Shown piece by piece: positions 6,969-36,863 of a DNA stretch of 40,344 bases. The stretch comes from Myxococcales bacterium (lineage in GTDB: Bacteria > Myxococcota_A > UBA796 > SXON01): NCBI GenBank assembly GCA_009692605.1, contig SHYV01000008.1, forward strand, positions 1 through 40,344. The letters run 5' to 3'. Made by a program: the position numbers and the translations under genes. Within the stretch, counting starts at the first letter, position 1. Each line of letters begins with the position of its first letter. The notes below the pieces were generated by a model. That model was not told the origin of the DNA. It saw nothing but the letters and a program-made list of their open reading frames with translations, and ran no database searches.

Positions 6969-9236
6969 ATGCCACGAACCTTGATGCAACTCACCCGCCT
7001 CGCTACCCCGGCCTCGGTGCTTCTGGTCCTCGCCTGCCGCAATCAGGCGCCTACGCTCGTGGATCATGCGACCCCGGTGCTGGGTGTGAGCAGTACGACC
7101 GTGGAGTTCGGCGCATTGGGTTGGGGGGAGAACACCGATCGCACCGTGTTCATCTCGAACGACGGCGGTACGTCGATGGACAACGGGTTGACCCTCGGGG
7201 TCAGCGCGATCACCTTGCTCGACACCGCACCGGAGAACTACTCGATCACCTACAGGGTGGGTGACATCGCCTGCGCGTCCGACCCGGCCACCGACCCGGC
7301 GGAGGACTCCGCTGCTGCTAAGGAGATCGACACCGGCTCCGGTCCCGACACCGGGCCCGCCGACACGGACACCGACACCGACACGGACACCGATCCCGAC
7401 ACCGGGACGGGGACCGACACCGGCAGCGACCCCGACGGCGACACGCTCTTCACTCTCGACCCCGGCTGTCGGATCCCTGTCTCCGTCAAATTCTCGCCGA
7501 CGACCGCCATCGGCGAGGTGTACGGAGCGCTGGAAATCGAGACAATCAGCCAGGATCTTGAAGAATCCCCCACATCCGAGCAGTACGTCGCCGCCTACCA
7601 CAACGATCAGGTACGGATTCGTAAGCTCGTTTACCTCCATGGCACGTCCGAGCACGCCGCTGGCTCCCTCGTGGTGCTTCCGCGTACCTACGACTTCGGG
7701 TATGTCAACCCTGAGGACACCGACGACCACGTCACGTTCATCGAGCTCGACAATGTGGGCGATGGGGACCTTGAAATCACCGGGGTGGCCTTGCAGTCGA
7801 CCTGCGACGCGGCGTACTCGATCGTCACCATGCCCTCGATCGGCACGTTGCCGCCGGGCGGGTCCACGATGGCTGAAGTGCGCTTCGCCCCTACGGACGA
7901 TCAGGCCGCTTATTGCCAGCTGGTGATCGAGTCCGACGATCCCGGGGCCGCTCAGGTCGATGTGACGCTCACCGGAAACGCCGGCGCAGCCCCGGACAAC
8001 GTCCCCCCTACGGCCTTCATCCGGTCGCCGGAGAACGGGTACAAGTACGATGCGATTCGCGATCTGGAGATGGAGGTCAACATCTTCGACGTGAATCAGC
8101 CGGCGACCACGCTGGGCTGCCGTGTTTACAGCGCGGTGCTCCAGCACGCGAACGTCGCCGATTGCCAGGCGACGGATGAGTCCGGCCACTTCTTCATCTC
8201 CGTCGATCCCGGCGATCTGGATGCCGGCAGTGACTCCCTGCAGCTGATCGTCACCGACGGCAGCGGCGTCTCTACAACCGCCGCCGTCTCCATCGTGATC
8301 AGCTCGGACTACCCGGTCGACGACGATGACGGCGACGGGTTCGGGCCGTCGGACCTCGAAAACCCCGATTGCGATGAAGGCGACCGCAACACCTACCCCG
8401 GCGCTGCGGAGCTGTTCGACCTCGCTGACAACGACTGCGACGGCATCATCGACGAGGGCTCCGACGGCTACGATGACGACGGCGACGGTGTGACCGAGGG
8501 CGACGGCGACTGCAACGACTACAACGACGCTTCCTATCCGGGCGCTCCCGAGCGCGGCGACGGCGTAGACAACGACTGCGACTCCACGGTCGATGAGGGC
8601 ACTGCGCTCTATGACGACGATGGTGACGGGTACGCAGAGGTCAACGGTGACTGCGCCGGTGCGGCGTCGAAGGCGCAGGACGATGATGCTGAGGTTCACC
8701 CGGGCGCTGCGGAGGTGTGCGGCGACGGCATCGACAACGACTGCAACGGCCTCGTGGACTCTGGCGATGCCTGCCAAAGCGACGACTCCTCACCCGAGAT
8801 CGCCGGCGGGCTCGACGGCATCTCCGCGGACCAGTACTCTTGTGAGAGCGGAGACGTGATCACGCTGTCCGTGCTCTCCCACGATGCGGACGGACAGGTC
8901 TCGACCTATTTCTGGCAGGATGCGAGCGGCTCGGCGACGAGCAACTTCGACAACACGGCCTCCTCGACCGTACACTGGACGTGTCCGAGCCTCGACTCCA
9001 GTCAGAGCGGGGGGGCGGCGATCCTCGTGGTGGCGAGCGTCTCGGATCCCGACACCCACAGCAATCAGGCCTCGACCAAAATCTCGGTCTACCCCAAGGA
9101 CTTCGGCCTGTACGACATCTACCAGGTGGTGATCGTCCCCACCGATAAGGGCTGCGCCTCGGTCTCCGCGGCGCCGTCTCTCTCGCTGCTGGGGCTGGCA
9201 CTAGCGCTGGCCGGGGTGCGTCGCCGGCGGGTATGA
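6969..9236 (+). CDS. Large MopE/ASH-repeat lipoprotein with MYXO-CTERM-like tail
   Basis: 755 aa. The N-terminus is a lipoprotein signal with lipobox VLAC (Cys23). After a short beta domain comes a low-complexity Asp-Thr segment (about 120-156). An ASH/choice-of-anchor-type beta domain follows at about 231-339 (TYDFGYVNPEDTD and LDNVGDGDLEITGV are typical). At about 452-600 there are three MopE-like metal-binding repeats (DDDGDG..., C-D...YPGA-E, D-N-D-C-D/N-G). A last beta domain precedes a C-terminal tail: Cys729, a hydrophobic stretch and RRRRV, the form of a MYXO-CTERM sorting signal. Having both an N-terminal lipobox and this tail is odd. GGAG at 6960-6963 supports ATG 6969. Likely surface exposed; ligand unknown. 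Confidence 0.85.
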   Translation: MPRTLMQLTRLATPASVLLVLACRNQAPTLVDHATPVLGVSSTTVEFGALGWGENTDRTVFISNDGGTSMDNGLTLGVSAITLLDTAPENYSITYRVGDIACASDPATDPAEDSAAAKEIDTGSGPDTGPADTDTDTDTDTDPDTGTGTDTGSDPDGDTLFTLDPGCRIPVSVKFSPTTAIGEVYGALEIETISQDLEESPTSEQYVAAYHNDQVRIRKLVYLHGTSEHAAGSLVVLPRTYDFGYVNPEDTDDHVTFIELDNVGDGDLEITGVALQSTCDAAYSIVTMPSIGTLPPGGSTMAEVRFAPTDDQAAYCQLVIESDDPGAAQVDVTLTGNAGAAPDNVPPTAFIRSPENGYKYDAIRDLEMEVNIFDVNQPATTLGCRVYSAVLQHANVADCQATDESGHFFISVDPGDLDAGSDSLQLIVTDGSGVSTTAAVSIVISSDYPVDDDDGDGFGPSDLENPDCDEGDRNTYPGAAELFDLADNDCDGIIDEGSDGYDDDGDGVTEGDGDCNDYNDASYPGAPERGDGVDNDCDSTVDEGTALYDDDGDGYAEVNGDCAGAASKAQDDDAEVHPGAAEVCGDGIDNDCNGLVDSGDACQSDDSSPEIAGGLDGISADQYSCESGDVITLSVLSHDADGQVSTYFWQDASGSATSNFDNTASSTVHWTCPSLDSSQSGGAAILVVASVSDPDTHSNQASTKISVYPKDFGLYDIYQVVIVPTDKGCASVSAAPSLSLLGLALALAGVRRRRV
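7329..7437 (+). repeat. GACACC-type low-complexity repeat (Asp-Thr linker)
   Basis: Repeated GACACC/GACACG hexanucleotides encode a run of Asp-Thr, then Asp-Pro and Thr-Gly, pairs inside the MopE-repeat lipoprotein. It reads as a flexible acidic linker and is prone to in-frame length change. Confidence 0.7.
8323..8770 (+). repeat. Three MopE-type metal-binding repeats in coding sequence
   Basis: Three related units of about 45-50 codons each encode D-D-D-G-D-G (calcium-loop-like), then a Cys-Asp, YPGA or HPGA, and DN-DC-D/N-G with a second Cys. This is the putative metal-binding motif described for the copper-binding secreted protein MopE and widespread in myxobacterial exoproteins. Confidence 0.75.
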
Positions 9237-16350: not shown

Positions 16351-17418
16351 CTACCTGCCTTGTTTGACTCTTTTTCGCCCTAGACGCTCGTAGACGCGTA
16401 CCGCCTGCCTCTCTTTGTACAGGTCGTGCCGGCCTTCGCCGCTCTCGTTCATGTCGGCGGTCTCGGCGTCCACAAGCTGGAACTCGATCGGGACCATGAC
16501 CGCTTCACCCAGCAGCGCGCGGTTCTTGGGCGGGGCCACGCCCGGCACGTCGTAGACGCACACCGGCAGCTCGGCGATGAAGTTGATCACCCGATAGACC
16601 GACCCGGAATGCGGGTTGCCCGATCGTGCCTCAGGGAGCGTGAACCCGGGCACGAGCCGCCCGAAATCGTGGAGCTCCTCCGCGGACAACAGGTTGTTGT
16701 GGCTCTCCCCAGGGGTGATCGCCGCGAACGGGACGAGATGTCGGCACAACCACGCGATCGCCGGGATCAGGTCTTCGCGGCGCTCGGTCACCACGCGGAA
16801 GCGGAGCTTGTCGAAGATGGTGGCTGCGGTGGCTTCGCGCTTCGCCAGCAGTTTGGTGATGACGCTCGGCCGGCTCTTGCGGTTGCCGTAGAAGGCGCGC
16901 AGGGGAAACCCACCGAGCCTCATCTGGTCCGCCCGAGCGAGCACGACGTCGTAGGCGAGCTGGGTCAGGTCGACATCCTTGACGGCGACCTGGGCCCTAA
17001 GCTCCTGCATCTCGAGGTGGTTGATGACGTGCATCAGCTTCAGGACAGCGCAGTACTGGATGCGGTCTCGGGAGAAGCGTTCGCGCTCGGACGCGGCGAG
17101 GAACGCGTCCCGCACGTCTTCGGGCCGACGAACATTGGGGCGGATCGTGAGGCGGACGTGCTCCTCTAGGTAGTTCACCGCTTGATTGTAGAGGTAGCGC
17201 AGCCTCTCTCTCGCCCACCCGTGGCGGCTGACGTCGCACTTCCAGAGCGCCAGAAAGCTGTTCACCTCGTCGTGAGAGGTGAAGCGTAGGGCGGTCCAAT
17301 CCACGACCGAGCCGCCGGTGACCGCCAACAGCGCGGCTTCGATGTCCAGCGGGCTCAAGACCGGGGTCACCGGCGGCAGCGGGGGCAGCTCGTCGAGCTC
17401 CAGAAGGTCAGGTCGCAT
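16351..17418 (-). CDS. Divergent RelA/SpoT-fold protein (putative nucleotidyltransferase)
   Basis: 355 aa, no signal peptide. The C-terminal two-thirds carries, in order, features of the (p)ppGpp synthetase domain. NRKSRPSVITKL (179-190) resembles the RxKxxxSxxxK ATP-binding motif. IFDKLRFRVV (201-210) resembles the DxxxxR motif with the Mg2+ Asp. VYRVINF (274-280) sits where GYxSxH stands, Tyr kept and His lost. PIEFQL (310-315) matches the ExQ motif with the second Mg2+ Glu. H331, Y334 and K335 match the closing H-xx-YK. The N-terminal 110 residues are unassigned. I think it belongs to an uncharacterised family known in myxobacteria (TIGR04552, from memory, unverified). It could make or bind a nucleotide, or be a non-catalytic relic. 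Its stop lies 1 nt from that of hrpB. Confidence 0.6.
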   Translation of the reverse strand: MRPDLLELDELPPLPPVTPVLSPLDIEAALLAVTGGSVVDWTALRFTSHDEVNSFLALWKCDVSRHGWARERLRYLYNQAVNYLEEHVRLTIRPNVRRPEDVRDAFLAASERERFSRDRIQYCAVLKLMHVINHLEMQELRAQVAVKDVDLTQLAYDVVLARADQMRLGGFPLRAFYGNRKSRPSVITKLLAKREATAATIFDKLRFRVVTERREDLIPAIAWLCRHLVPFAAITPGESHNNLLSAEELHDFGRLVPGFTLPEARSGNPHSGSVYRVINFIAELPVCVYDVPGVAPPKNRALLGEAVMVPIEFQLVDAETADMNESGEGRHDLYKERQAVRVYERLGRKRVKQGR

Positions 17419-17472: not shown

Positions 17473-20400
17473 CTACCCTTCGAGGCTCGCGTACACCCAG
17501 CGTACAAATCGCCACGGGTCCAGCGCCTCCTCGGGAGCAAAGCGCACGTCCAATTGGCGGGTGACCGGGTCCCAGGTCCAGCGTCGCGGGTTGTCCTTGG
17601 CCAACTGCGCCGCGCGGGCCTGCGGTGCTGGGCTGGCCTGCGGAGTCGCAGGGGCCACCTCTGCTGGCTCTGCGAACCTCACCACTGCGCGCACCTTCAA
17701 CAGCGCCAGCCGCTCGATCCCGAGCGCGCGGCACTCGATGCGGAGGTGGGTCAGGTTGCGAAGGGCTTCGGCCTCGGCGGGGGCCTTCCCATGCCGGTCC
17801 ACGAGGGAGGCGAACACCCGGTCGGCCTCTTTCGCCGTGCGCGCCAACGCCATTTGCTGGTAGGCGTCGAGGCGGTCGGGCAATTCAGCGATCCATGCGT
17901 CGGGCAGGGTCGCCGAAATGCCGATCTCGACGTCGGGGTCGATGCGATGGGGCGTGGACTGGCCTCGAGCTCGGGCGACGGCCTCTTCCAGCAGCTCCAG
18001 ATAGGCGTCGAACCCGATGGCGGCGATCTGCCCGTGCTGCTTGTGCCCGAGGATCTCTCCCGCACCGCGCTGGTCCAGATCCTCGCTGGCGAGGGCGAAG
18101 TTGGAGCCCAGCTCGTTGTGCTTCTGGAAGGCGTGCAGGCGCTCGTAGATCGGACCCTTCCCCGGTAAGGCGGCGTCCTGCGCACCGCTCACCAAGACGG
18201 TGCAGTGGGCTCGGACGTTTCCTCGCCCGACGCGGCCGCGTAGCTGGTAGAGCTGAGCGAGCCCGAACATCTCCCCGCGGTTGATGATCATCGTATTGAC
18301 CATGGGAAGGTCGATCCCCGACTCGATGATGGCGGTGGAGATCAGGACGTTGTCATCGCCCCGGATGAAGCGTCGCAGCGCACGCTCCAGCACGGCGGGG
18401 CTCATCTGGCCGTGAGCGACGCCGATGCGCGCCTCGGGGACCAGCGCCCGCAGCCATCTGGCGATGCCCTCGATGCTCTGCACGCGGTTGTGCACGAAGA
18501 ACACCTGTCCGCCACGCCGCAGCTCGTGGTGGATGTCCTCCTTCACTCGCTCGGGGCTGTACTGGACGACCTCGGTGCGGATGCGCTGACGCCCGGCGGG
18601 AGGGGTGGAGATCACCGAGAGCTCACGCAGGCCGGTGAGCGCCATCTGGAGCGTGCGGGGGATGGGCGTCGCCGTCAGGGTGAGCGCGTGCACGCCGGTC
18701 TGAGAGTGGCGCGAGCGTCGGAGCTCCTCCTTCTGTCGGATTCCGAAGCGGTGCTCCTCATCGACGATGAAGAGCCCAAGCCGGCGGAAGCGCACGTCTG
18801 CGGAGAGCACGCGGGACGTCCCGATGAGGACATCCACCCGGCCCTCGGCCAGATCGGCGAGGATGCGACGCTCGTCGGCGGACGACGTCAACCGCGACAG
18901 GGTCTCCACGCGCAGCGCACCCTGCGTCGCGGCGTGGAACCGGGCATGAAAGGTCTCGCCGTGCTGCATCGCGAGGACGGAGGTGGGGCAGAGCAGCGCG
19001 ACCTGCCACCCATCTTGCGCCACGCGGAACGCCGCGCGCATCGCGACTTCGGTCTTGCCGAAGCCGACGTCGCCGATCACCACGCGATCCATCGGTCTGC
19101 CGGAAGCGAGGTCTTCCAACACGTCGTGGATCGCGGCCTCCTGGTCTGGGGTCTCGAGGTACGGGAAGCCTTCTTCGAAGGACAGGTAAAGGTCATCCCT
19201 CCCCGAGAACGCCGGCGCGGTCGCCAGCGCCCGCCGGGCCTGGATCAGCAGTAGTTCGCTCGCCAGTTGGGCGATCGCGTCCCGGACCTTCGCCCGTCTC
19301 GCGTCCCAGGTCGCCCCGCCGAGCCGGTCCAGCTTGGGCGCTTCGCCGCCCGCGCCCTGGTATGGCGTGATGAGGTCGAGGCGGTGGATCGGCACGTGCA
19401 GCCGCGCCCCGTCGCGGTACTCGATGGTGACGAAATCGCCGTGCTCCACGCCGGCGGGGGTCCGGGCGATCCCGGCGTACCGACCGATGCCGTGCCGCAC
19501 ATGGACCAGGAGTTGGCCCGGCTGGACGTTCGCGAAGCTCTTTCGCTGCGCCTCGCGGAAGGTGCGGCCCTGCGGTCTTTCCCCGGTTCCCCCTCGGGCC
19601 CCCCGACCCCCCAAGTCCCCCCTCGGTGTCTCGCCGCCGACCCGTGATCCGAACATGTCGTCTGCGGTGACCCACACTTCGGTGTCGGCGACGAACCCTT
19701 CGCTTAGTGCGCCGGGGATGAGGCCGATGGTGCCCGCCGCCGCCGGCATGTGCACCACGGGCACATCGAGTCCGCCGTTGTGCAGCATCGCGACGACCCG
19801 CTCAACACGCGCGTCTTGGGCGACCAGCGTGACCGCTCGGCCCTCCGCGACCCAGGCGCGAAGCTGCCGGACGACCGGAGCCAGCTCACCCAACGCGCGC
19901 ACGCCAGGCGGTGAGATCGTGTTGGCGCGGGGCGCGTCCGCGTCGCGGCCGCCTTCGGTCAGCGCCCGCTCGGTCAGCGCGATGGCCCCGCTGAGATCGA
20001 CACCCTCGGCGATGCCGTAGCGGTCCTCGGGGACCGTCAGCGGCCGCTCACGCGCCGGCATGGCGGACCAGCGCGCCTGCACTTGGGCGGCGGCCAGGGT
20101 GAGCTCTGCGTGCACTCGGACTGGCTCCCAGACGTAGGCGGGACCGCGCAGGTCCAGCGGCGCTAACGGGGCCTCAAGCGGCTGCAGGGCCGCGAGGTAG
20201 TCCTCGGCGCCCTGAAACCACAGGCCGTCCCGGAGCTGATCGACGACTCGCTTCCAGATGCGGAGCAGGTGGTGGGAGTCGTATCCGCTGGCTGTGCCGC
20301 TGGTCGGCTCTGCGCGGGCGTGGCGTAGCCCCAAAGTGTACGCGGCCGCTCGCTCCGCCGACTCGCGGTCGAGGACCGCCTCGCGCATCGGCAGCAGCTC

Positions 20401-21033
20401 AAGGCGGGCGAGCGGGGTTCGCGACGGGCCCGGTCGACCTGGACCGGGGGCGGTCGCCGCAGCCTGGCGGTCGGGGTCGAACGCGCGCATCGCTTCGATC
20501 TCCTGATCGAAGCGGGCTATACGCACCGGCCAGGTCGAGCCTGCCCCCCACACGTCGACCACCTCGCCGCGCACCGCGACGGTGCCGGGGACGTCCACCT
20601 GCTGGACCACGAGGTAACCGCGGGCGGTGAGCCACCCGAGCAGCGCCTTCTGGTCGAGCCGGGCGCCCGGCCGTAGCTCAAGCGTACACAGGGCGGGGAC
20701 CTTCAGAAGCAGGGCCTTTGCTGGCGCGACCACCAACGCCCCGCGCGCCGCGCGTGCGGTGATGCGCATACGCGAGAGGTCCGGGTCGGGCGACACGCCG
20801 TCCCACGGTCGGCCATCGTCGGCCGGGTAGAGCAGCGTGGGGGTGGGGCTGCGCTCCAGGCTCGCGTAGAATCGCAGGTCCGCCAGCCAACGATCAGCTT
20901 CGTCCCGGGTCGGCACCACGAGCCATCCGGTCGCATGGCTGCGCGCCAGCAGCGCGGCCGCAGCGGACGGACGCAGCCCGCCGAGCGCCCGCGTGGGCGG
21001 GCCCTGCGCGGCGGCCGGGCCGGTTCTGGTCAA
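17473..21033 (-). CDS. mfd: Transcription-repair coupling factor Mfd
   Basis: Mfd removes RNA polymerase stalled at DNA lesions and recruits UvrA. About 1186 aa (E. coli 1148). The N-terminal UvrB-like module is followed at about 500-560 by the CarD/RID-type polymerase-interacting domain (PGQLLVHVRHGIGRYAGI, then IEYRDGARLHVPIHRLDLI). The helicase motor has GDVGFGKT (about 652), IVDEEHRFG (about 756), TATPIPRTL, STAIIESGIDLP (about 904) and QLRGRVGR (about 929). The C-terminal TRCF domain closes the protein. The open frame extends to 21213 inside the membrane-protein gene. TTG 21033, 6 nt after that gene's stop, is my preferred start because family sequence begins there, but the choice is uncertain. 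Co-transcription with the upstream membrane gene is likely. Confidence 0.93.
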   Translation of the reverse strand: MTRTGPAAAQGPPTRALGGLRPSAAAALLARSHATGWLVVPTRDEADRWLADLRFYASLERSPTPTLLYPADDGRPWDGVSPDPDLSRMRITARAARGALVVAPAKALLLKVPALCTLELRPGARLDQKALLGWLTARGYLVVQQVDVPGTVAVRGEVVDVWGAGSTWPVRIARFDQEIEAMRAFDPDRQAAATAPGPGRPGPSRTPLARLELLPMREAVLDRESAERAAAYTLGLRHARAEPTSGTASGYDSHHLLRIWKRVVDQLRDGLWFQGAEDYLAALQPLEAPLAPLDLRGPAYVWEPVRVHAELTLAAAQVQARWSAMPARERPLTVPEDRYGIAEGVDLSGAIALTERALTEGGRDADAPRANTISPPGVRALGELAPVVRQLRAWVAEGRAVTLVAQDARVERVVAMLHNGGLDVPVVHMPAAAGTIGLIPGALSEGFVADTEVWVTADDMFGSRVGGETPRGDLGGRGARGGTGERPQGRTFREAQRKSFANVQPGQLLVHVRHGIGRYAGIARTPAGVEHGDFVTIEYRDGARLHVPIHRLDLITPYQGAGGEAPKLDRLGGATWDARRAKVRDAIAQLASELLLIQARRALATAPAFSGRDDLYLSFEEGFPYLETPDQEAAIHDVLEDLASGRPMDRVVIGDVGFGKTEVAMRAAFRVAQDGWQVALLCPTSVLAMQHGETFHARFHAATQGALRVETLSRLTSSADERRILADLAEGRVDVLIGTSRVLSADVRFRRLGLFIVDEEHRFGIRQKEELRRSRHSQTGVHALTLTATPIPRTLQMALTGLRELSVISTPPAGRQRIRTEVVQYSPERVKEDIHHELRRGGQVFFVHNRVQSIEGIARWLRALVPEARIGVAHGQMSPAVLERALRRFIRGDDNVLISTAIIESGIDLPMVNTMIINRGEMFGLAQLYQLRGRVGRGNVRAHCTVLVSGAQDAALPGKGPIYERLHAFQKHNELGSNFALASEDLDQRGAGEILGHKQHGQIAAIGFDAYLELLEEAVARARGQSTPHRIDPDVEIGISATLPDAWIAELPDRLDAYQQMALARTAKEADRVFASLVDRHGKAPAEAEALRNLTHLRIECRALGIERLALLKVRAVVRFAEPAEVAPATPQASPAPQARAAQLAKDNPRRWTWDPVTRQLDVRFAPEEALDPWRFVRWVYASLEG

Positions 21034-21038
21034 CGCGG

Positions 21039-21782
21039 CTAGCCTACGCCCGGCTCGGGCTGGGTCGCCTTTTGGTAGAGCGACAGGTAGTACTGGACCA
21101 TGACGAGGTCGAAGAACGCCAGCACTGCGTAGTCGACGACGCCACCGGCAAACATCACGTACCAGCCAGAGTCCTGAGCGTAGAACGTTCCGAAGAGCTG
21201 CCAGGGGACCCACCAGATCATCCCGAGCAGAAAGGTGCGGAAGATTTGACCTCGTCGGCCGAGCGTCAGTCGGCTCGACAGGGAGAGTACGCCGCGCTCG
21301 CCGGGCTTCAGCGTCGCGATCGCGTCTACAAACGAGTACTGCAGCCCGAAGACGATCGTGGGGAGGATGATGATCTGCCCCAGCATGACCGCTGCAAAGG
21401 CGAGAAAGTGCGCCTTTAGGACGTCGGGAAAGCGGTCGATGCCGTAGTTAATCGCGCCCGCCAAGCTCGCTGGCTTCTTGTTGTACTCCTGCACCCAAAG
21501 GTAGATGGTCGCCGGCGCCGCCCACGCGCCGACCACGCCGCCCCAGAGGGTCATCGCGAACATCGCGACGAGCTGCGCGGCCACCAGCATCATCTGGCCT
21601 TGGCGGATGGGGTCGGACTCGGCGTAGTGGCGCTCGATGTACCCGAACACCGCCCCGGTCACTCCGTCCGCGATCAGCGCGCCGATGCCCCCTGTGATCA
21701 GCGAGATGAAGAGGATGATGTGGAGATTCGCGAAGAACACCCGCAGGGCGTTCCGCACGGCGTCGAACATGGAGATGCGCAT
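21039..21782 (-). CDS. Polytopic membrane protein of unknown function
   Basis: 247 aa with about six transmembrane segments (for example LHIILFISLITGGIGALIAD, LVAAQLVAMFAMTLWGGVVG and AFAAVMLGQIIILPTIVFGL) and Arg-rich loops between them. The pattern recalls DUF4013/glycerophosphoryl-diester-phosphodiesterase-membrane-domain-like proteins often found in myxobacteria, but I cannot assign one. ATG 21782 is used; ATG 21770 is possible. Its stop lies 5 nt before the proposed mfd start, so it forms an operon with mfd, although no functional link is evident. Confidence 0.75.
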   Translation of the reverse strand: MRISMFDAVRNALRVFFANLHIILFISLITGGIGALIADGVTGAVFGYIERHYAESDPIRQGQMMLVAAQLVAMFAMTLWGGVVGAWAAPATIYLWVQEYNKKPASLAGAINYGIDRFPDVLKAHFLAFAAVMLGQIIILPTIVFGLQYSFVDAIATLKPGERGVLSLSSRLTLGRRGQIFRTFLLGMIWWVPWQLFGTFYAQDSGWYVMFAGGVVDYAVLAFFDLVMVQYYLSLYQKATQPEPGVG

Positions 21783-24725: not shown

Positions 24726-24739
24726 GGGGTCCCTACCCC
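24726..24739. terminator. Short GC hairpin between convergent genes
   Basis: GGGGT-CCCT-ACCCC forms a perfect 5-bp stem with a 4-nt loop in the 32-nt gap between the convergent DivIVA-like and epmB genes, extending into the epmB stop. No T-run follows on either side, so any terminator activity is uncertain. Confidence 0.25.
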
Positions 24740-25764
24740 ACGTCCCGCTTGCCCGAGCCATCGGGCGGGTCGATGACGTAGCGAGGAAGCGCCAGCCCGC
24801 TCACGCGTTGGGTGAGCGCCGCGTAGATCGCACGGCCCGCCTCCAGCGAGACCCTGAAATGGGCGTTGCCCGGCACGGCGTCGGGGTGATGCAGGTAGTA
24901 GGGGAACACCCGAAGCGCGACGAGCTCCTCGCTTAGAGTAGCCAGCGTATCGGGGCTGTCGTTCACCCCGGCCAGCAGCACCGCTTGGTTGCACACCGGG
25001 ATGCCCGAGTCGACGAGCGCGGCCAGCGCGGCCCGAACGGCCGGAGTGAGCTCCGCAGCGTGGTTGCAATGGACGAACACCCACGTGGGGGCCCGCGCCC
25101 GGATCCCCGCGATCAGCGCCGCCGTCACCCGCGTGGGCGCTGTGATCGGCGCGCGGGTGTGGATCCGGATCACCGGGGGCGCCGCGAGGCCCTCGCGCAC
25201 GGCGTCCATCGCCTCGAACAGTCGGTCGTCCCGTATGGCGAGCGGGTCTCCACCCGAGAGGATCACCTCCCGCGCGCCCGACGTGCGGGCATACGCGATC
25301 ATCGCGGCCCACTCCGACGGTGTCGGATCCTCCCCTTCACCCGGCCGGTGGTCGGCCCGGAAGCAGTAGCGGCAATAGAGCTGGCAGCGCTTGGTCAGCA
25401 GCAGCAGCACGCGGTCGTCGTGCTTTCGCACCACCCACGGCAACGGGCTTCGAGCCTGCTCCCCCACGGGGTCTGGCGTGTCGTGCGCGTCGATCTCCAG
25501 CTCGCGGGGGTCGGGCAGCGCCTGTACGAGCAGCTCCGGCTCTCCGGAAGCGGCCCAGGTTCGCGGTACGCGAATGGGAAATCGCTTGTTTAGGCCATCC
25601 CAATCGATGGTCGCCAGGCCGGGGTGTCGCCGGACCAACTCCGCACGCCCGAGCACCGCGCCCCGAGCCCCGTCGGGTGGCGGTCCCGACGCCGGACCCT
25701 CTGGCGCGGTCTGCGGGGCGTGATAGCCGCCCGGTCCCGCCACTTCTTCTGGAGAACGCACCAT
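24733..25764 (-). CDS. epmB: Radical SAM lysine 2,3-aminomutase family, EF-P-modifying (EpmB-like)
   Basis: 343 aa, the length of EpmB/YjeK. The radical SAM 4Fe-4S motif is C127-x3-C131-x2-C134 (CQLYCRYCFR). GGDPL (171-175) is the SAM-binding Gly-rich motif. FPYYLHHPDAVPGN is the KamA-family signature, and the PLP-binding Lys is K339 near the C-terminus (GSGK). EpmB converts lysine to (R)-beta-lysine, which EpmA attaches to EF-P. The divergent neighbour is efp with a KPGKG loop, which supports EpmB over catabolic KamA. No epmA is in the window. ATG 25764 overlaps the efp ATG; GTG 25656 would give a shorter N-terminus and free the efp upstream region. Confidence 0.88.
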   Translation of the reverse strand: MVRSPEEVAGPGGYHAPQTAPEGPASGPPPDGARGAVLGRAELVRRHPGLATIDWDGLNKRFPIRVPRTWAASGEPELLVQALPDPRELEIDAHDTPDPVGEQARSPLPWVVRKHDDRVLLLLTKRCQLYCRYCFRADHRPGEGEDPTPSEWAAMIAYARTSGAREVILSGGDPLAIRDDRLFEAMDAVREGLAAPPVIRIHTRAPITAPTRVTAALIAGIRARAPTWVFVHCNHAAELTPAVRAALAALVDSGIPVCNQAVLLAGVNDSPDTLATLSEELVALRVFPYYLHHPDAVPGNAHFRVSLEAGRAIYAALTQRVSGLALPRYVIDPPDGSGKRDVG

Positions 25765-26332
25765 GTCTTACGAGACCTCAGACTTCCGCAATGGCCTCAA
25801 GGTCGAGACCGAGGGGAACCCGTTCGTCATCGTATACTTCCAGTTCGTGAAGCCCGGCAAGGGCACAGCGTTCACGCGCACGAAGTTGAAGAACCTTTTG
25901 ACCGGTGCGGTGATCGAACGCACGTACCGCAGCGGAGAGATCCTCGCCGAAGCCGATGTCGAGGAGCACCCCATGCAGTTCCTCTATGCGAACGGCGGCA
26001 TCTACACCTTCATGAACACCGAGACCTACGACCAGGTCGAGCTGCAGGGGTCGATGATCGGCGACGACGCGAAGTTCCTCATGGCGAACCTCGACGTCAA
26101 TGTGCTCTTCTACAAGGGGCGCGCGGTCAACCTCACGTTGCCCAACTTCATCGAGAGCCGGGTCGTCTCGACCGAGCCTGCGGTCAAGGGCAACACGTCT
26201 CAGGGGGCGCTGAAAGCGGCCGTTCTGGAGTGCGGCGCCGAAATCATGGTACCCCTGTTCGTCGACGGTGGCGACATGATCAAGGTGGATACTCGCGAAG
26301 GTGGAAGCTACGTGAGCCGCATCGGGAAGTAG
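25763..26332 (+). CDS. efp: Translation elongation factor P
   Basis: EF-P binds between the P and E sites and relieves ribosome stalling at polyproline. 189 aa, three beta-barrel domains. The domain I loop reads VKPGKGTAF with Lys33 at the tip, the residue that EpmA/EpmB modify with beta-lysine in E. coli. Domains II and III show LLTGAVIERTYRSGE, YTFMNTETYDQ and the C-terminal VPLFVDGGDMIKVDTREG...YVSR signature. GGAG at 25751-25754 lies 8 nt before ATG. A polyproline rescuer fits this proteome, which has long Pro runs such as the linker of the PUFA-synthase subunit. Confidence 0.97.
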   Translation: MSYETSDFRNGLKVETEGNPFVIVYFQFVKPGKGTAFTRTKLKNLLTGAVIERTYRSGEILAEADVEEHPMQFLYANGGIYTFMNTETYDQVELQGSMIGDDAKFLMANLDVNVLFYKGRAVNLTLPNFIESRVVSTEPAVKGNTSQGALKAAVLECGAEIMVPLFVDGGDMIKVDTREGGSYVSRIGK

Positions 26333-26340
26333 TTCCGGGT

Positions 26341-26346
26341 TAGGCT
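26341..26346 (+). promoter_or_regulatory. Candidate leaderless -10 (TAGGCT) of the PHP lipoprotein
   Basis: TAGGCT ends 5 nt before ATG 26352 and there is no Shine-Dalgarno in the 19-nt gap after efp. Spacing matches that expected for leaderless transcription. Confidence 0.35.
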
Positions 26347-29069: not shown

Positions 29070-32000
29070 ATGCCCGCTCCCCTCGTCGCCGCTCGCCTGA
29101 CCTCTACGCCGGCTGCGAGTAGCCGCGCACCCATCGCCATCATCGGGCAGGCCGCGCTGCTCCCCGGGGCGCGGGACGTCGGGCAGCTCGCCGCCAACGT
29201 GTTGGCGGGACGAGATGCGGTGCAGGGCGCGCCGGCCGGACGTTGGCGTGTGGACGACCGGTTCGTCCTGACCGAGTCCAGCAAGCCGGCCGATGCGCGG
29301 GACAAGGCGTGGTCCTCCTCGGGCGGCTACGTCATCGAGGATCCAAGCGCACAGCTTGACTTCGCCGCGCTGGAGACCCGCGGCGTGCCGGACGGTGGGG
29401 CGTTGGACCCGCTCGTTCGCTGGCTCATGCACGTCGGCGCGGAGTCGCTCCGCTCTGCTGGGATCGATGCTCAGGATGGGCGCACCCGGTCCGGTGTGCT
29501 CCGCCGCGCCGGGGCCATCTTCGGGAACCTCTCGTTTCCGTCTGAGGGCATGGCGCGCTTCGGCGAGGCGGTGCTGCTGCAGCGCTGGGGGCACGACGTG
29601 CCGGTAGGGCCTGCCGTCGACGCGCGCAACCACTTCATGTCGGGCCTCCCCGCTGACCTGATGTCCCGCGCCCTCGGCCTTGGCGCCGGTGCCTTCGCGC
29701 TGGACGCCGCCTGCGCGAGCGCGCTGTACGCGATCAAGCTGGCGTGTGACGCGCTGAATGCAGGCCGCGCCGACATCATGCTCGCCGGCGGGGTGAACCG
29801 CGCTGACAGCCTTTTCCTGCACATCGGGTTCTGCGCGCTTGGGGCCATGTCCAAGACGGGCCAGTCTCGGCCCTTCCATCGCGGCGCGGATGGTCTGGTG
29901 CCCGCGGAGGGCTGCGCGCTCCTGACGCTCAAGCGGCTCGCGGATGCCGAGCGGGACGGTGATGTAATCCTGGGGGTGATCCGCGGGGTCGGTCTGGCCA
30001 ACGATGCGCGGGGGCGCTCGTTGCTCGCGCCGTCGGAAGAAGGGCAGGTTCGAGCAATGCGGCTGGGCTTCGCCGCGGCGGGGGTGTCGCCTGGGGACAT
30101 CCAGCTCATCGAGTGCCATGCCACCGGCACGCCCACTGGGGACCGGGCCGAGCTGGGCAGCATGGCGACGGCCTATGCAGACGCCCCGGAGAGGATCGCG
30201 ATCGGGTCGCTGAAATCCAACCTCGGGCACCTGATCACGGTCGCTGGCGTTGCGGGGATCCAGAAGGTGCTGGCGGGGATGAGCGCCGCGGTCATGCCGG
30301 CGACGCTGCACGTGGATGACGCGATCCCCGAGGCCGATGGCTCCCGCTTTGAGCTGCTCAGGGCCCAGCGGGAGTGGCCGACGGTGGACGGCGTGCGGCG
30401 GGCCGCTGTGTCTGCCTTCGGCTTCGGTGGGAACAACGCCCACTGCATCATCGAGTCGTGGGTTCCGGGGCGATCGGTCTCGGTCGGCGGGTCTGGCGGC
30501 CAAGCGGCGCAGCCGGTGGTCGATCCCGTCGTGGCGGCGAGCGCTCCTCTGGGCGAGCCGGTGGCTGTGGTTGGTCTGGCGGTCATCGCGGGGGAGGGGA
30601 CCGATCGGCATGCGTTTGCGCGAGAGCTGTACAGCGGTCTGCCCGGCCAGCCGAAGGCGGCGGCTCAGCTTGAACTGCCGCTCTCGGGCCTGCGGTTCCC
30701 GCCGAACGATCTCAAGATGAGCCTCGCCCAGCAGACCTGGATGTTCCGGGTCGCAGGCGACGCGCTCAACGACGCGCCTGCGCCGGCCCAGGCCGATCTG
30801 CGCGCGCGTACCGCGGTGGTGGTCGGCATGGGGGCGGATGGCGAGGTCACGGGCTTCGGGCTCCGCTGGCGGCTGCCCAGCTTGGCCAGCCTACTCCCGG
30901 CGATGAAGGCCGGGGACATCGAGGCGCTCAGAGACGCCGCTGCGCCTCCGCTGCGCGCCGAACACGTGATGGGGACGATGCCCAACATCCCGGCGAACCG
31001 CCTGAACGTGCAGCACGACATCGGCGGACCCAGCTTCACGGTGAGCCACGAGGAGCTCTCCGGGATCGCGGCGCTCTCGGTCGGCGTGGGGCTGCTCCGG
31101 GGCGGTGACGCGGATCGGGTGGTTGTCGGCGCCGTCGACCGCGCGGAGGACCCGCGAACCGTACAGGCGTTGCGGGAGTTGGGCGTTGACGGGCAGCCGT
31201 CGACCGCGGCGGTGGCGATGGTGATTCGGCGGCTCGCGGACGCAGAGCGCGACGGCGACCCGATCTACGCGATCGTGGACGCGGTCGACGTGCTCGGGCC
31301 CGGGGAGCAGCATCCAGACGGTGACGTGCCCGCTGCACCGCCCCTGCCAGCCCGCTTTGGGCACGCGCACGCCGCCCAAGGGTTGGTTCAGGTCGCCGCC
31401 GCGGTGCTGGCGCTCCGGTACGGCCGCCGTCCGCCGACGCGCGCTGGCGAAGCGCCGACTCGCCTTGAATCGGCCGCGCTCGCGGTGGTCACGCCCAGCA
31501 TTGGCGGCGCCACGGGGCGCGTGCTCCTGCGCTGCGCAGGGCCGACGCTCGATCTGGGCGAGGACCTCGCTCGCGTCGTGCCAGTGGCCAGCATGACGCT
31601 CACTGTACCGGCGCGGGTGATCGCTGGGGCTGATCCCGCCCCCGCCGCCCCCGCCCCCGCCGCCCCCGCCCCCGCCGTCCCCGCCCCTCTGGAGTCCCAC
31701 GTGCAGCGCATGGCCCCCGCCCCCGTCCTTCCCCCAGTGGCGCTGTTGCCCGCCGGAGCCCTCCCGCGCTCGGCTTCGGCTCTCGCCGCCCCGCCCGCCC
31801 CGGCCCCGCCCGCCCCGGCCCCGCCCGCCCCCGCCGCGCCCGCCCTGGCCTCCGTGGTCGCCGCATCAGGCGTTCTTCCCCCAGCCAACGCGCTGATCGC
31901 CGCCCTGCTCGATCAGCAGAACGCCGTCTCGCGCATTCACGCCGACTTCCTCGCCCGGCAGGCCTCGGTCTACGCAGCGTTCCAGAAGAGCTCCGCCGGT

Positions 32001-35000
32001 ACGCGTGACCTGCTGTTCAACGCCCTTGCCGGCGGGGTGACCGGGCTCGCGCCGGCTCCGATGGCCTGGCCTGATCCAGCCGCCGCGCTGGTCGTCCCGC
32101 CGTTGGCTCCGGCCCCGGCGGGCGCTGCCTCGCCGGTCGCTGCCCCGCTGGCCGTTCCCCCGCCGGTCGCTGCTCCTCCGGCCGCCCGCTCGCCGGCCCC
32201 GCCGGCCGCTGCTCCTCCGGCCGCTGCTCCTCCGCCCGCCCGCTCGCCGGCTCCGCCGGTCGCTCCCGCCGGCCCCGGGGAGGCGCTCCCTGGTCCGCGC
32301 CTCTCCCGACGCGACCTCGAAAATGGCGCCTCCGGCTCGATCTCCACCATCTTCGGCCCGGCGTTCCAGACCTATGACGCCTACAGCCGCGTCGTCCGCA
32401 TGCCCGAGCCGCCGCTTCTGCTGGCCGACCGTGTGCTCGGCATCGAGGGCGAAGCGAAAAAGCTGGGCAAGGGCCGCATCGTCACCGAGACCGACGTCCG
32501 CCCGGACAGCTGGTATGTCCACGACGACCACATCCCCGCCGGCGTGATGATCGAGGCGGGTCAGGCCGACCTCCTGCTCATCAGTTGGCAGGGCATCGAC
32601 GATTCGAACAAGGGCGAGCGCATCTACCGCTTGCTTGGCTGCGATCTCATCTACAAGAACGGCCTTCCCCGGGTCGGCGATACGCTGCAGTACGACATCC
32701 GCTGCGACGGCCATGCCCGCCTCGGCGATATCCGGATGTTCTTCTTCCACTACGCTTGTACTGTGGCCGGCCAGACACGCCTTGAGGTGCGTGAGGGTCA
32801 GGCTGGATTCTTCTCCGACAAGGAGCTGTTGGATTCGGGCGGCGTGCTCTGGGACGCGGCGACCGTCGAGATCGAACTTCCTCCGACCCACCTCGCGGCT
32901 GTGGTCACGCCCGACCGCCTTCAGTTGGATCGCGCGGACTTGCAGGCGCTCGCCGAGGGGCGAGTCGCCGACTGTTTCGGTGAGAGCCACAAGCTAGCCT
33001 GCACGCATACGCTCACCCCGCGCATCGCCGGGGACGGCGGCGCCTTCCCGATGATCTTCCACGACCGGGTGACGATCGACCCCACCGGCGGCCCCTGGGG
33101 GCGCGGCTATTTCCGCAGTGAGCAGGACATCACGCCGGATCTGTGGTTCTTCGACGGCCACTTCAAGGGCGATCCCTGCATGCCCGGCACGCTCATGTTC
33201 GAGGGCTGCCTGCAAGCGATGCAGGTGTACATGACCGCCATCGGGCACACGTTGAGCCGCGACGGGTGGCGATTTGAGCCCAAGGCTGACACGGTGTTCA
33301 AGCTTCGGTGCCGCGGACAGGTGATCCCCACCTCGAAGTTGCTGACTTACGAGCTCTTCGTGATGGAGTGCGGCATCTCGAACGGCCGACCGTTCTTGTC
33401 CGCGCAGGTGATGTGCACCGTCGATGGGCTCAAGTGTTTCCATGCCGACCCGCTGGTCATCGAGATGATCCCGGACTGGCCGTTGTCCCGGATGCGCGAG
33501 TACGACGGCTGGAAGGAGTCGAAGCCGGTCGCGTGGGATTACCGCTCACTCATCGCGTGCGCCTGGGGTAAACCAAGCGAAGCGTTCGGCCCGATGTACA
33601 CTCCGTTTGACGGGCCGATCCGCCCAGCCCGCCTGCCCGGTCCGCCGTACCACTTCATGTCGCGGGTCACGCAGACCACCGGCAAGATGGGGACGATGGA
33701 GGTCGGGAGCACCTGCGAGGTCGAGTACGACGTGCCGGTTGACGCCTGGTATTTCCGGGAGAATGGCCGTGCGGTCATGCCGTTTGCGGTCCTGCTCGAG
33801 GCGGCCCTGCAGCCCTGCGGCTGGCTCGCCAGCTGGAGCGGCTGTGCGCTCACCACCAAGGACGAGCTGCTGTTCCGGAACCTCGACGGCACCGCAGATG
33901 TGCTCTGTGATGTCACGCCCGACATCGGCACGATCCGGACCACCGTGAAGCTCACCAAGCTAAGCAAGACGGCTGGCATGATCATCGTCGGCTTCGAGGT
34001 CGAGATGTTCCGGGCCCTGCCGGCTGCTGGCGGCGCGTCAGGCGGGGAGCAGCGGTTCTACAAGATGGAGACGGTGTTCGGCTTCTTCCCGCCGGCCGCC
34101 TTCGAGAATCAGGTGGGGGTCGGGTCCACGCCGGATGAGCGGGCCTGGCTCGCGTCGCCGTCGGAGTTCTTCGTCGATCTCCACGGCGAAGCTACGAAAT
34201 ACCAGCAGGGCACGCTGCGACTGCCCCCGCCGATGATGTGCATGCTCGACCGGGTGACCGGGTACTGGCCGACCGGCGGGAAGAAGGGGCTCGGGAAATG
34301 GCGGGCCGAGAAGTCCGTCGATCCAAGGGAGTGGATGTTCAAGGCGCACTTCTATCAGGACCCGGTGCAGCCCGGCTCGCTGGGCATCGAAGCGATGGTC
34401 CAGCTCCTGCAGTTCCACATGATCCATCGGGGGTACGGCAGCGAATTCGGAGCGGCGCTCGACAACCCCTGCTTCGAAGCGCTAGGGACCACGGGCCGGC
34501 CCTTGTCTGCCGACGGAACCAAGACCCCGCCGATGACGTGGAAGTACCGCGGTCAGGTCACGCCGAAGACCTTCCTGGTGCAGACCGAGGTGGAGATCGT
34601 CGAGGAGCGCGAGGACTGCGTTCTGGCCGAGGCCCACCTGTGGGTCGACGGAAAGCGGATCTACTCCGCCAAGAACCTTTGTATGCGCGTGGTGAGCGGC
34701 CCCAGCGATGGGGGCGTGCCGAGCGCGCTGGGCGACGGGGAGGGTGGCCGCGACCGACGCCCTTTAGGTGACCGGGCCGCGCAGCCGTTGGCTTCGCGAC
34801 CGGCGGAGGCGGGCGACCCGGGGAGCGGGTTCGAGGCGTTCATTGAGGTTCCCGTGCCGTTCGGACACGCGCCGACTTGGGTGATCCCGAGCCTGCCGAT
34901 GATGACCATGGCGATGCTGTCGTTGCACGGCGCCAGCCGTGCCGGGTTGCATGGGGCGGGGCTGCGGGCCGGCGGCGGCGAGCTGTGGCTGGACGGCACC

Positions 35001-36863
35001 GCGCTGCGTTGGTTCACTTTTCCGGACGGGCCACGGGTGGCGCACATTCGGGCCCTGCCGATCCCCGGTGTTTTGCCCTCGGCGATGGTGACGCTCTCGG
35101 CTTCGACGGGGCCCGCCGCACATCCGCACAAGGGTGAGCCGTTCTTCCGCGCGCGGGTCGGACCCCGGTCCTCCGATGATGGAGCTCCGCTCGAGGTCTG
35201 CTCGCCGCTCGCCGAGCTCCCTCCGCTGCTGGACGCGGGCCCGGGCCGTGATGGGGCCGATCTGTACGCATCCGGCGACCTGTTCCACGGCCCCGAGTTC
35301 GCGGTCGTCGAGCGCGTCCTGGCGACAGGGTCCAACGGATCGAGCCTGCTGCTGCGGCCGTCCGCCCCGGACAAGCTGCTCGATGGCGCCACGCACGGCG
35401 TACCCCACGACCGCCTCGAATTGTGGTTTCCAGAGCTGGCGCCGGGGCAGGTCGGCTATCCATCCCGCCTGCTCGCGCTGGGCCTGTTCGGGGAGATGCC
35501 CCGGGGTCGTGTGCGCTGCGAGGTCCGGCGCGGTGAGGTCGTGAACGGGCGGCCGCGCATCCTTGCGTGGTTTTTTGAGGCGGACGCGGAGCCGGGCTCC
35601 CCGCCCAGTTCGGGCCCCAGCCCGGGGCCCTCGGGGCCCAGCTCGGGCTCCGGTCCCAACGGGCGCCCCTGCGCGTTCTTCCACCTTGAAGAGGTGTTGC
35701 TGCCGAAGGGCCGGATCGGATCGGCCTCGCCGGACCAGCGACGGTCGTTCTTGCAGGGCCAGCCGGTGCCGGGGCTGTCGCTCTCGGTCATCGAGGGCGA
35801 GACGGCGGTGTTGACCGCGCTCGAGGCCCGAGGTTCGGACTGGCTTCCCGGTACGTTGGCGCGTGTTTACGGGACCGACAACCCGCTCTCCATTGCCGCG
35901 AAAGAGCTGGTTGGAGCCCTGTTGGGCGTACACCCGCGCCACGTTGATCTGGAGCCGGTGGCGAATGGGTATTGGGCGCGGGACAGCCATGCTCCATTGG
36001 CAACCTACCGGCTGTCTGTGGACAGCGACCGTGTCACCTTGTCGGCCGCGCCTCGTTCGGGGATCGATCTGGACGGGGTCGTCCGGTGGTGGCGAAAGGA
36101 GCTGGAGTGCGGTGAGTGGCCCGGGGAGGACATCCTCGTCGGGTTGGCCCGCGGCGCGCTTCAAGGCGTCCGGATCGAGGATCCCGATGCGTTCGCTGCC
36201 TTGCACGGGCGCCCCTGCCTGTACGTCGGCAACCACCAGAACTACATCGAGAGTGTGGTTTTCTGCTGTGTGATGTCGGCGCTCTCGGGGGTGACTCTGG
36301 ATGCGCTTGCTAAGCAGGAGCACGCCTCCGGTTGGCTCGGGCACGTGCACGCCTGCCTGACGTCCTGGCGGTCGGTTCATTTTCCCGGCTCGATGGTGTT
36401 CTTCGATCAGTCGAAGCCGGACACCTTGTCCGGGCTGGTCTCTGAGCGCTGTCGCAGCCACTCGTTGCTGGTCCACGTTGAGGGCACTCGGGTGACCACT
36501 CCCGGGCAGCCGGTCCAGAAGATGAGCTCGCTCTGGGTGGACCTCGCTGTCGAACGCGGCATCCCCATCGTGCCGGTCGCCTTCCGCGGCGGCGTTGCTG
36601 GCGCTCGGGTGGACCTGCCGGTCGCGCCGCAGACCCACCACATCGGCGCTCCGATCGCCGTGGCTACGCTCGCCGCGATGCCCTACGCCGCCCGCAGGAA
36701 GCACGTCATGAGCGCGATCAACGCGCTCGGAGTGCCCGAGCAAGCGGCGGGGCAGGTGCTGCCCGCGGGTGACGCTGCGGACGTGGTCAGGGCGCTCGTC
36801 GGGCCCATGGACCGTTGGCGGGGCATCGATGCGGCGTGGGTGGACCGTTGGGAGGGGAAGTGA
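29070..36863 (+). CDS. pfa3: Polyunsaturated fatty acid synthase subunit, Pfa3/PfaC type with AGPAT domain
   Basis: 2597 aa. Order: ketosynthase about 21-465 (Cys215 in DAACAS, His350 in ECHATGT, His387 in KSNLGH, all intact); chain-length factor about 497-830, where the Cys site reads SHEELSG; Ala/Pro linker about 855-1075 with a helical island at 935-990; double-hotdog FabA-type dehydratase 1 about 1105-1480 (His1364 in DGHFKGDPCMPG); dehydratase 2 about 1525-1875 (His1760 in KAHFYQDP); a PKS-type DH-like region about 1920-2250 (LFHGPEF, LLDGATH); and an LPLAT/AGPAT domain about 2380-2530 (NHQNYIES, VEGTR). The KS-CLF-DH-DH-AGPAT order matches myxobacterial Pfa3. No enoyl reductase or acyl-carrier subunit gene is nearby, and no ACP (DSL) motif is seen. 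It overlaps the next gene by 1 nt. Confidence 0.93.
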   Translation: MPAPLVAARLTSTPAASSRAPIAIIGQAALLPGARDVGQLAANVLAGRDAVQGAPAGRWRVDDRFVLTESSKPADARDKAWSSSGGYVIEDPSAQLDFAALETRGVPDGGALDPLVRWLMHVGAESLRSAGIDAQDGRTRSGVLRRAGAIFGNLSFPSEGMARFGEAVLLQRWGHDVPVGPAVDARNHFMSGLPADLMSRALGLGAGAFALDAACASALYAIKLACDALNAGRADIMLAGGVNRADSLFLHIGFCALGAMSKTGQSRPFHRGADGLVPAEGCALLTLKRLADAERDGDVILGVIRGVGLANDARGRSLLAPSEEGQVRAMRLGFAAAGVSPGDIQLIECHATGTPTGDRAELGSMATAYADAPERIAIGSLKSNLGHLITVAGVAGIQKVLAGMSAAVMPATLHVDDAIPEADGSRFELLRAQREWPTVDGVRRAAVSAFGFGGNNAHCIIESWVPGRSVSVGGSGGQAAQPVVDPVVAASAPLGEPVAVVGLAVIAGEGTDRHAFARELYSGLPGQPKAAAQLELPLSGLRFPPNDLKMSLAQQTWMFRVAGDALNDAPAPAQADLRARTAVVVGMGADGEVTGFGLRWRLPSLASLLPAMKAGDIEALRDAAAPPLRAEHVMGTMPNIPANRLNVQHDIGGPSFTVSHEELSGIAALSVGVGLLRGGDADRVVVGAVDRAEDPRTVQALRELGVDGQPSTAAVAMVIRRLADAERDGDPIYAIVDAVDVLGPGEQHPDGDVPAAPPLPARFGHAHAAQGLVQVAAAVLALRYGRRPPTRAGEAPTRLESAALAVVTPSIGGATGRVLLRCAGPTLDLGEDLARVVPVASMTLTVPARVIAGADPAPAAPAPAAPAPAVPAPLESHVQRMAPAPVLPPVALLPAGALPRSASALAAPPAPAPPAPAPPAPAAPALASVVAASGVLPPANALIAALLDQQNAVSRIHADFLARQASVYAAFQKSSAGTRDLLFNALAGGVTGLAPAPMAWPDPAAALVVPPLAPAPAGAASPVAAPLAVPPPVAAPPAARSPAPPAAAPPAAAPPPARSPAPPVAPAGPGEALPGPRLSRRDLENGASGSISTIFGPAFQTYDAYSRVVRMPEPPLLLADRVLGIEGEAKKLGKGRIVTETDVRPDSWYVHDDHIPAGVMIEAGQADLLLISWQGIDDSNKGERIYRLLGCDLIYKNGLPRVGDTLQYDIRCDGHARLGDIRMFFFHYACTVAGQTRLEVREGQAGFFSDKELLDSGGVLWDAATVEIELPPTHLAAVVTPDRLQLDRADLQALAEGRVADCFGESHKLACTHTLTPRIAGDGGAFPMIFHDRVTIDPTGGPWGRGYFRSEQDITPDLWFFDGHFKGDPCMPGTLMFEGCLQAMQVYMTAIGHTLSRDGWRFEPKADTVFKLRCRGQVIPTSKLLTYELFVMECGISNGRPFLSAQVMCTVDGLKCFHADPLVIEMIPDWPLSRMREYDGWKESKPVAWDYRSLIACAWGKPSEAFGPMYTPFDGPIRPARLPGPPYHFMSRVTQTTGKMGTMEVGSTCEVEYDVPVDAWYFRENGRAVMPFAVLLEAALQPCGWLASWSGCALTTKDELLFRNLDGTADVLCDVTPDIGTIRTTVKLTKLSKTAGMIIVGFEVEMFRALPAAGGASGGEQRFYKMETVFGFFPPAAFENQVGVGSTPDERAWLASPSEFFVDLHGEATKYQQGTLRLPPPMMCMLDRVTGYWPTGGKKGLGKWRAEKSVDPREWMFKAHFYQDPVQPGSLGIEAMVQLLQFHMIHRGYGSEFGAALDNPCFEALGTTGRPLSADGTKTPPMTWKYRGQVTPKTFLVQTEVEIVEEREDCVLAEAHLWVDGKRIYSAKNLCMRVVSGPSDGGVPSALGDGEGGRDRRPLGDRAAQPLASRPAEAGDPGSGFEAFIEVPVPFGHAPTWVIPSLPMMTMAMLSLHGASRAGLHGAGLRAGGGELWLDGTALRWFTFPDGPRVAHIRALPIPGVLPSAMVTLSASTGPAAHPHKGEPFFRARVGPRSSDDGAPLEVCSPLAELPPLLDAGPGRDGADLYASGDLFHGPEFAVVERVLATGSNGSSLLLRPSAPDKLLDGATHGVPHDRLELWFPELAPGQVGYPSRLLALGLFGEMPRGRVRCEVRRGEVVNGRPRILAWFFEADAEPGSPPSSGPSPGPSGPSSGSGPNGRPCAFFHLEEVLLPKGRIGSASPDQRRSFLQGQPVPGLSLSVIEGETAVLTALEARGSDWLPGTLARVYGTDNPLSIAAKELVGALLGVHPRHVDLEPVANGYWARDSHAPLATYRLSVDSDRVTLSAAPRSGIDLDGVVRWWRKELECGEWPGEDILVGLARGALQGVRIEDPDAFAALHGRPCLYVGNHQNYIESVVFCCVMSALSGVTLDALAKQEHASGWLGHVHACLTSWRSVHFPGSMVFFDQSKPDTLSGLVSERCRSHSLLVHVEGTRVTTPGQPVQKMSSLWVDLAVERGIPIVPVAFRGGVAGARVDLPVAPQTHHIGAPIAVATLAAMPYAARRKHVMSAINALGVPEQAAGQVLPAGDAADVVRALVGPMDRWRGIDAAWVDRWEGK
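31636..31848 (+). repeat. C-rich (GCCCCC) repeats encoding the Ala/Pro linker
   Basis: Long runs of CCCGCC/GCCCCC encode Ala-Pro repeats of the PUFA-synthase linker; a second such tract lies at about 32090-32270. The complementary strand has closely spaced G-runs able to form G-quadruplexes. Confidence 0.7.
36851..36855 (+). promoter_or_regulatory. Shine-Dalgarno of the NAT-like gene inside pfa3
   Basis: GGAGG, extended to GGAGGGG, lies 7 nt before ATG 36863. It sits within the last codons of pfa3 and fixes the NAT start at the TGATG overlap. Confidence 0.7.

Follow-up and report, generated by a model that had tools for sequence, protein, structure and literature searches.

A predicted RelA/SpoT-type synthetase with a remodelled acceptor site in the TIGR04552 family of Myxococcota

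The locus

The window, a stretch of 40,344 nucleotides at the start of contig SHYV01000008.1 (Myxococcales bacterium, assembly GCA_009692605.1), belongs to a host genome of 3.9 Mb that is 79% complete. Its reverse strand carries a 355-aa open reading frame that begins with ATG and has GAGGGA a short way 5' of the start. The mfd gene lies upstream on the same strand, with 54 bp between its stop and the start of this gene, and a convergent hrpB-type helicase gene ends 2 bases from the gene's own end. No promoter or terminator pattern was found between 16200 and 17700.

16351..17418, minus strand: 355-aa open reading frame, TIGR04552/TIGR04562 member by NCBIfam profile scores, predicted RSH-like synthetase
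17473..21213, minus strand: mfd (transcription-repair coupling factor), upstream and co-directional; Pfam TRCF, CarD_TRCF_RID and UvrB_inter

Within the order to which the window belongs, mfd usually lies within two genes of the TIGR04552 gene, in varying orientation. We considered an operon with mfd and rejected it: only the closest relatives have the two genes in one direction, mfd flips, and the context in other families is entirely different, with neighbours such as what we take to be lon or DUF507-yicC-gmk (lon, DUF507 and YicC were named by reading the sequences). Proximity to gmk (no more than about 6 kb away in 13 genomes, counted by eye) was confined to a single taxonomic family, f14, and seen nowhere else, so that a link to guanylate kinase is at most weak context. 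At three loci of one taxonomic family (L108, L110 and L123), the gene stands near gmk, MTA phosphorylase-like and PfkB-like genes, a purine neighbourhood.

Elsewhere in the window, a 2597-aa open reading frame (29070-36863, plus strand) with a ketoacyl synthase, four FabA-like dehydratase stretches and an acyltransferase match resembles a PUFA or secondary-lipid synthase. A radical SAM gene (24733-26343), possibly of the EpmB/lysine aminomutase type, points away from a gene for elongation factor P in a divergent arrangement, and the two are likely an EF-P modification pair. A 755-aa protein (6969-9236, plus strand) combines Cu-binding_MopE motifs with a HYDIN/CFA65-like Ig domain.

Family membership and inheritance

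The original prediction assigned the protein to an unannotated family. It is in fact covered by two NCBIfam models above their curated cut-offs, TIGR04552 (E 1.2e-79, 268 bits; cut-off 125) and TIGR04562 (E 3.6e-74, 250 bits; cut-off 140). Both are described only as 'TIGR04552 family protein', with mention of neither a function nor RSH homology; the family is thus already named, without an assigned function. In the literature the name occurs, but we found no study of function and no biochemical data for TIGR04552.

The relatives are Myxococcota, as the record taxonomy states for several loci; the remaining titles are broad or doubtful. Loci L005, L009 and L019 carry this myxobacterial family in records titled as a Klebsiella pneumoniae MAG, and these titles look wrong. 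All but one of the 58 sampled relatives carry the gene, and a profile search placed it above cut-off in 167 of 282 Myxococcota genomes; in both sets it is nearly always single-copy. The family was found in none of 14 control genomes; searches of plasmids, phages and viral contigs gave no match to it, and neither PADLOC nor PHROG matched the gene. In a quick tree, the clades of the family follow taxonomic families. The gene is vertically inherited and common in Myxococcota, and shows no sign of mobility. It is also under purifying selection, with dN/dS of 0.07-0.11 among close relatives, values that are rough because dS is near 1. A canonical Rel is encoded in the same genome as the window gene, and likewise in nearly all of 112 sampled genomes.

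A TIGR04552-annotated gene has appeared in one evolution study. In Bdellovibrio sp. NC01, a one-base deletion in it climbed past 75% in a single evolved line out of six; starvation survival was better in all six lines, each of which had other mutations too (PMC9888234). As the deletion rose there, this suggests that the annotated gene is dispensable in that strain, which does not by itself show its function.

Homology to the RelA/SpoT synthetase domain

Searched alone against Pfam, the window protein gave no match up to E 10, PF04607 included. Its homologues, however, do match PF04607: 15 of 26 close homologues (best E 2.4e-4) and 25 of 30 diverse family members (best E 2.5e-7). In the genome search, four Myxococcota members scored above Pfam's curated cut-off for PF04607, at the same places as the TIGR04552 matches. 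A similar search of the PDB found nothing with the window protein or with a profile of close relatives; with a profile of diverse members, the top ten matches were all Rel, RelA or SAS enzymes, led by 1vj7 (RelSeq, E 1e-4) and followed by Rel, YwaC and RelA. The HMMER alignment to 1vj7 paired K181/S185/K189, D203 and R208 with the same elements of RelSeq, and a second block paired E312-x-Q314 and H-x2-Y-K with their RelSeq counterparts, D203 and E312 aligning by profile to D264 and E323. Compared by hhalign with 31 myxobacterial Rel synthetase domains, the family scored 63 with a probability of 95%, against a best score of 20.7 and a probability of at most 0.9% for 60 column-shuffled or reversed controls.

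The predicted structure agrees with these alignments. An AlphaFold model built from a 26-sequence alignment reached a pLDDT of 77.5 and a pTM of 0.78; residues 182-202, part of the donor site, fell below a pLDDT of 50. All 21 Foldseek matches of this model with E<=0.001 were alarmone synthetases (best 6fgk, E 1.6e-5). In VIA-align, ranks 1 to 26 all went to RSH entries (Z from 11.0 down to 7.1, the first 23 at Z 8.4-11.0), followed by DNA polymerase lambda at Z 7.0, with DNA polymerases beta and lambda at about 6.5-7. The superposition of the predicted model had an rmsd of 3.9 A over 126 residues, in an aligned range of residues 144-345. The predicted fold is thus related to that of the RSH synthetase, and the proposal of a RelA/SpoT-like nucleotidyltransferase gains strong support from sequence profiles, controlled profile-profile comparison and fold alike. 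Judged by homology, the C-terminal half is almost certainly an RSH-type synthetase domain.

16384..16986, minus strand: RSH-type synthetase (pyrophosphotransferase) domain, residues 145-345; hhalign, HMMER, AlphaFold, Foldseek and VIA-align

An invariant donor site and a remodelled acceptor site

All five motifs on which the original prediction was built are found at the residues it named.

16852..16878, minus strand: ATP-site motif K181-S-R-P-S185-V-I-T-K189, equivalent to RelSeq K243/S247/K251; hhalign, HMMER to 1vj7 and invariance
16795..16812, minus strand: D203-K-L-R-F-R208 (with R206), equivalent to RelSeq D264 (Mg2+ ligand) and R269; hhalign, HMMER and invariance
16582..16617, minus strand: remodelled acceptor loop N268...Y275-R-V-I-N279, equivalent to GYxSxH with Asn for His; hhalign and homologue alignment
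16477..16485, minus strand: E312-F-Q314 (ExQ), equivalent to RelSeq E323/Q325; hhalign, HMMER and invariance
16405..16428, minus strand: H331-x2-Y334-K335-x-R337-Q338, equivalent to HWxYK of Rel; HMMER and invariance

K181, S185, K189, K193, D203, R208, N241 and N268 are invariant in 72/72 homologues, and E312, Q314, D317, G327, H331, Y334, K335, R337 and Q338 in 71/71, so that both presumed Mg2+ acids, D203 and E312, are kept throughout. What the aligned residues do at the donor site and in Mg2+ binding is known from RelSeq, RelP and FaRel2 (PMC7983052, PMC11782079). In RelSeq, the catalytic residues include D264 and E323, Y308 stacks on guanine, and R241 and R269 sandwich adenine (PMC7983052); in FaRel2, the ATP phosphates are bound by R64, K66, S70 and K74, and Mg2+ by D90 (PMC11782079). 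Of the adenine-sandwiching pair, R208 corresponds to R269, and the position of R241 is taken by N179, which adjoins the near-invariant R180.

The acceptor side is remodelled, as GYxSxH reads V-Y275-R-V-I-N279, with the Tyr kept and the Gly, Ser and His not, and as it lacks the Lys and Asn found ahead of the stacking Tyr in Rel. The stacking aromatic is Tyr, rarely Phe, across branches of the family that share only 23-30% identity. The reported loss of the His holds for the window protein itself, which has N279, but not for the family: 18 of the 72 homologues have His at this position and 7 have Gln, Asn being found in the window's order and one other clade. As the residue is distributed by clade and requires four changes on the tree, the absence of His is a clade trait, not decay. 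Six loci (L053, L056, L057, L061, L068 and L070) form a deep sub-branch with Gln at the His position and with YHSIQFT-like and EVQILD-like motifs nearer to canonical Rel. The original prediction had also raised a degenerate enzyme; invariance of the donor-site and Mg2+ residues throughout the family and strong purifying selection (dN/dS about 0.1) make this unlikely.

A helical N-terminal domain

The residues ahead of the synthetase domain are predicted to form an all-helical domain (modelled alone, pLDDT 77.8 and pTM 0.69), for which comparison with solved folds gave no match (Foldseek best E 2.8, VIA-align best Z 3.5).

16990..17361, minus strand: all-helical N-terminal domain, about residues 20-143, AlphaFold model of the domain alone
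17017..17052, minus strand: helix motif C123-x2-L-[KR]-x-M-H130-x3-H134 (Lys in the window protein), marked by residue invariance

C123, L126, H130 and H134 are invariant in 72/72 homologues. The C-x6-H-x3-H spacing would put Cys and both His on one face of the helix, an arrangement suited to a metal or ligand site, and we regard this helix as a possible candidate for one. As KLMHVINHLE resembles KLADRLHNMR of Rel, a degenerate HD domain was also considered; it was rejected at an hhalign probability of 0.1% against the Rel HD profile. The RSH HD domain was also absent from the Foldseek and VIA-align matches of the N-terminal domain, an absence that excludes nothing.

Discussion

The protein shares with long RSH enzymes (Rel, RelA, SpoT) the synthetase fold, the K-x3-S-x3-K donor motif, the Mg2+ Asp and Glu, ExQ and HxxYK. 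Unlike them, it shows no sign of an HD hydrolase, a TGS or an ACT domain (no Pfam domain in 355 aa) and carries the helical N-terminal domain in their place; about 50 extra residues separate its Asp and Glu motifs, and GYxSxH is remodelled. The small alarmone synthetases (RelQ/SAS1, RelP/SAS2, YwaC) are its best Foldseek matches and likewise have a synthetase domain without an HD domain, but the window protein has about 140 extra N-terminal residues and a divergent acceptor loop, and its gene is a phylum-wide core gene. Toxic small alarmone synthetases and CapRel have the same domain, and K66/S70/K74/D90/R95/Y128/E145/Q147 of FaRel2 have equivalents by motif order, although the equivalent of R64 is Asn.

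We consider it likely that the TIGR04552 gene encodes a two-domain housekeeping protein, the C-terminal half of which is an intact, divergent synthetase, predicted to be an ATP-dependent 3'-pyrophosphotransferase whose acceptor site has been remodelled. ATP would be bound through K181, S185, K189 and R208, and a single Mg2+ would be held by D203 with E312. We infer that an acceptor that stacks on Y275 then receives the beta,gamma-pyrophosphate at its ribose 3'-OH. The default guess for this acceptor is GTP or GDP, and it could also be another nucleotide or the 3' end of an RNA. A regulatory or acceptor-selecting role may fall to the helical N-terminal domain and to the insert of roughly 50 residues. 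More speculatively, and with considerable doubt, the protein could be a second Myxococcota-wide pyrophosphotransferase beside Rel, controlled by an N-terminal C-x6-H-x3-H sensor, whose product is not (p)ppGpp but another 3'-diphosphate nucleotide or a pyrophosphorylated RNA end.

The divergence of the acceptor site (His to Asn or Gln, and the missing Lys and Asn before the Tyr), the loss of the RelSeq R241 equivalent and the presence of a canonical Rel to make (p)ppGpp would also fit a catalytically silent sensor that forms no product and instead uses its synthetase fold to bind ATP or an alarmone and to control a partner. We consider this unlikely, as the Mg2+ acids, the Lys/Ser phosphate-binding set, Q314 and the stacking aromatic are kept at 23-30% identity, and pure binding would rarely preserve metal acids. 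Less probable still is a nucleotidyltransferase of other chemistry on the same fold, such as one that transfers AMP or NMP to proteins, sugars or RNA. The superfamily does include polymerases beta and lambda (VIA-align Z about 6.5-7), and the acceptor loop and the insert are specific to the TIGR04552 family. However, a single Asp on strand 2 followed by ExQ on a later one, together with the K-x3-S-x3-K donor motif, is the arrangement of RSH enzymes, whereas ordinary nucleotidyltransferases carry their metal acids as DxD.

As the catalytic domain is shared with toxic small alarmone synthetases and CapRel (VIA-align Z 6.6-6.7 for CapRel), we also weighed a toxin of a toxin-antitoxin or anti-phage system. 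This is very improbable for a gene that occurs, nearly always in single copy, in 57/58 relatives and 167/282 genomes of the phylum, with tree groups that follow taxonomic families. It is vertically inherited and not mobile, is without match among plasmids, phages, viral contigs, PADLOC or PHROG, and lacks an antitoxin, no small partner gene being conserved beside it.

The favoured reading, that of an intact synthetase, bears on a group in which (p)ppGpp starvation signalling starts multicellular development. An unstudied RSH-like enzyme conserved in most sampled Myxococcota, and annotated also in predatory Bdellovibrio, would amount to either a missing part of this signalling or a new pyrophosphate-transfer pathway.
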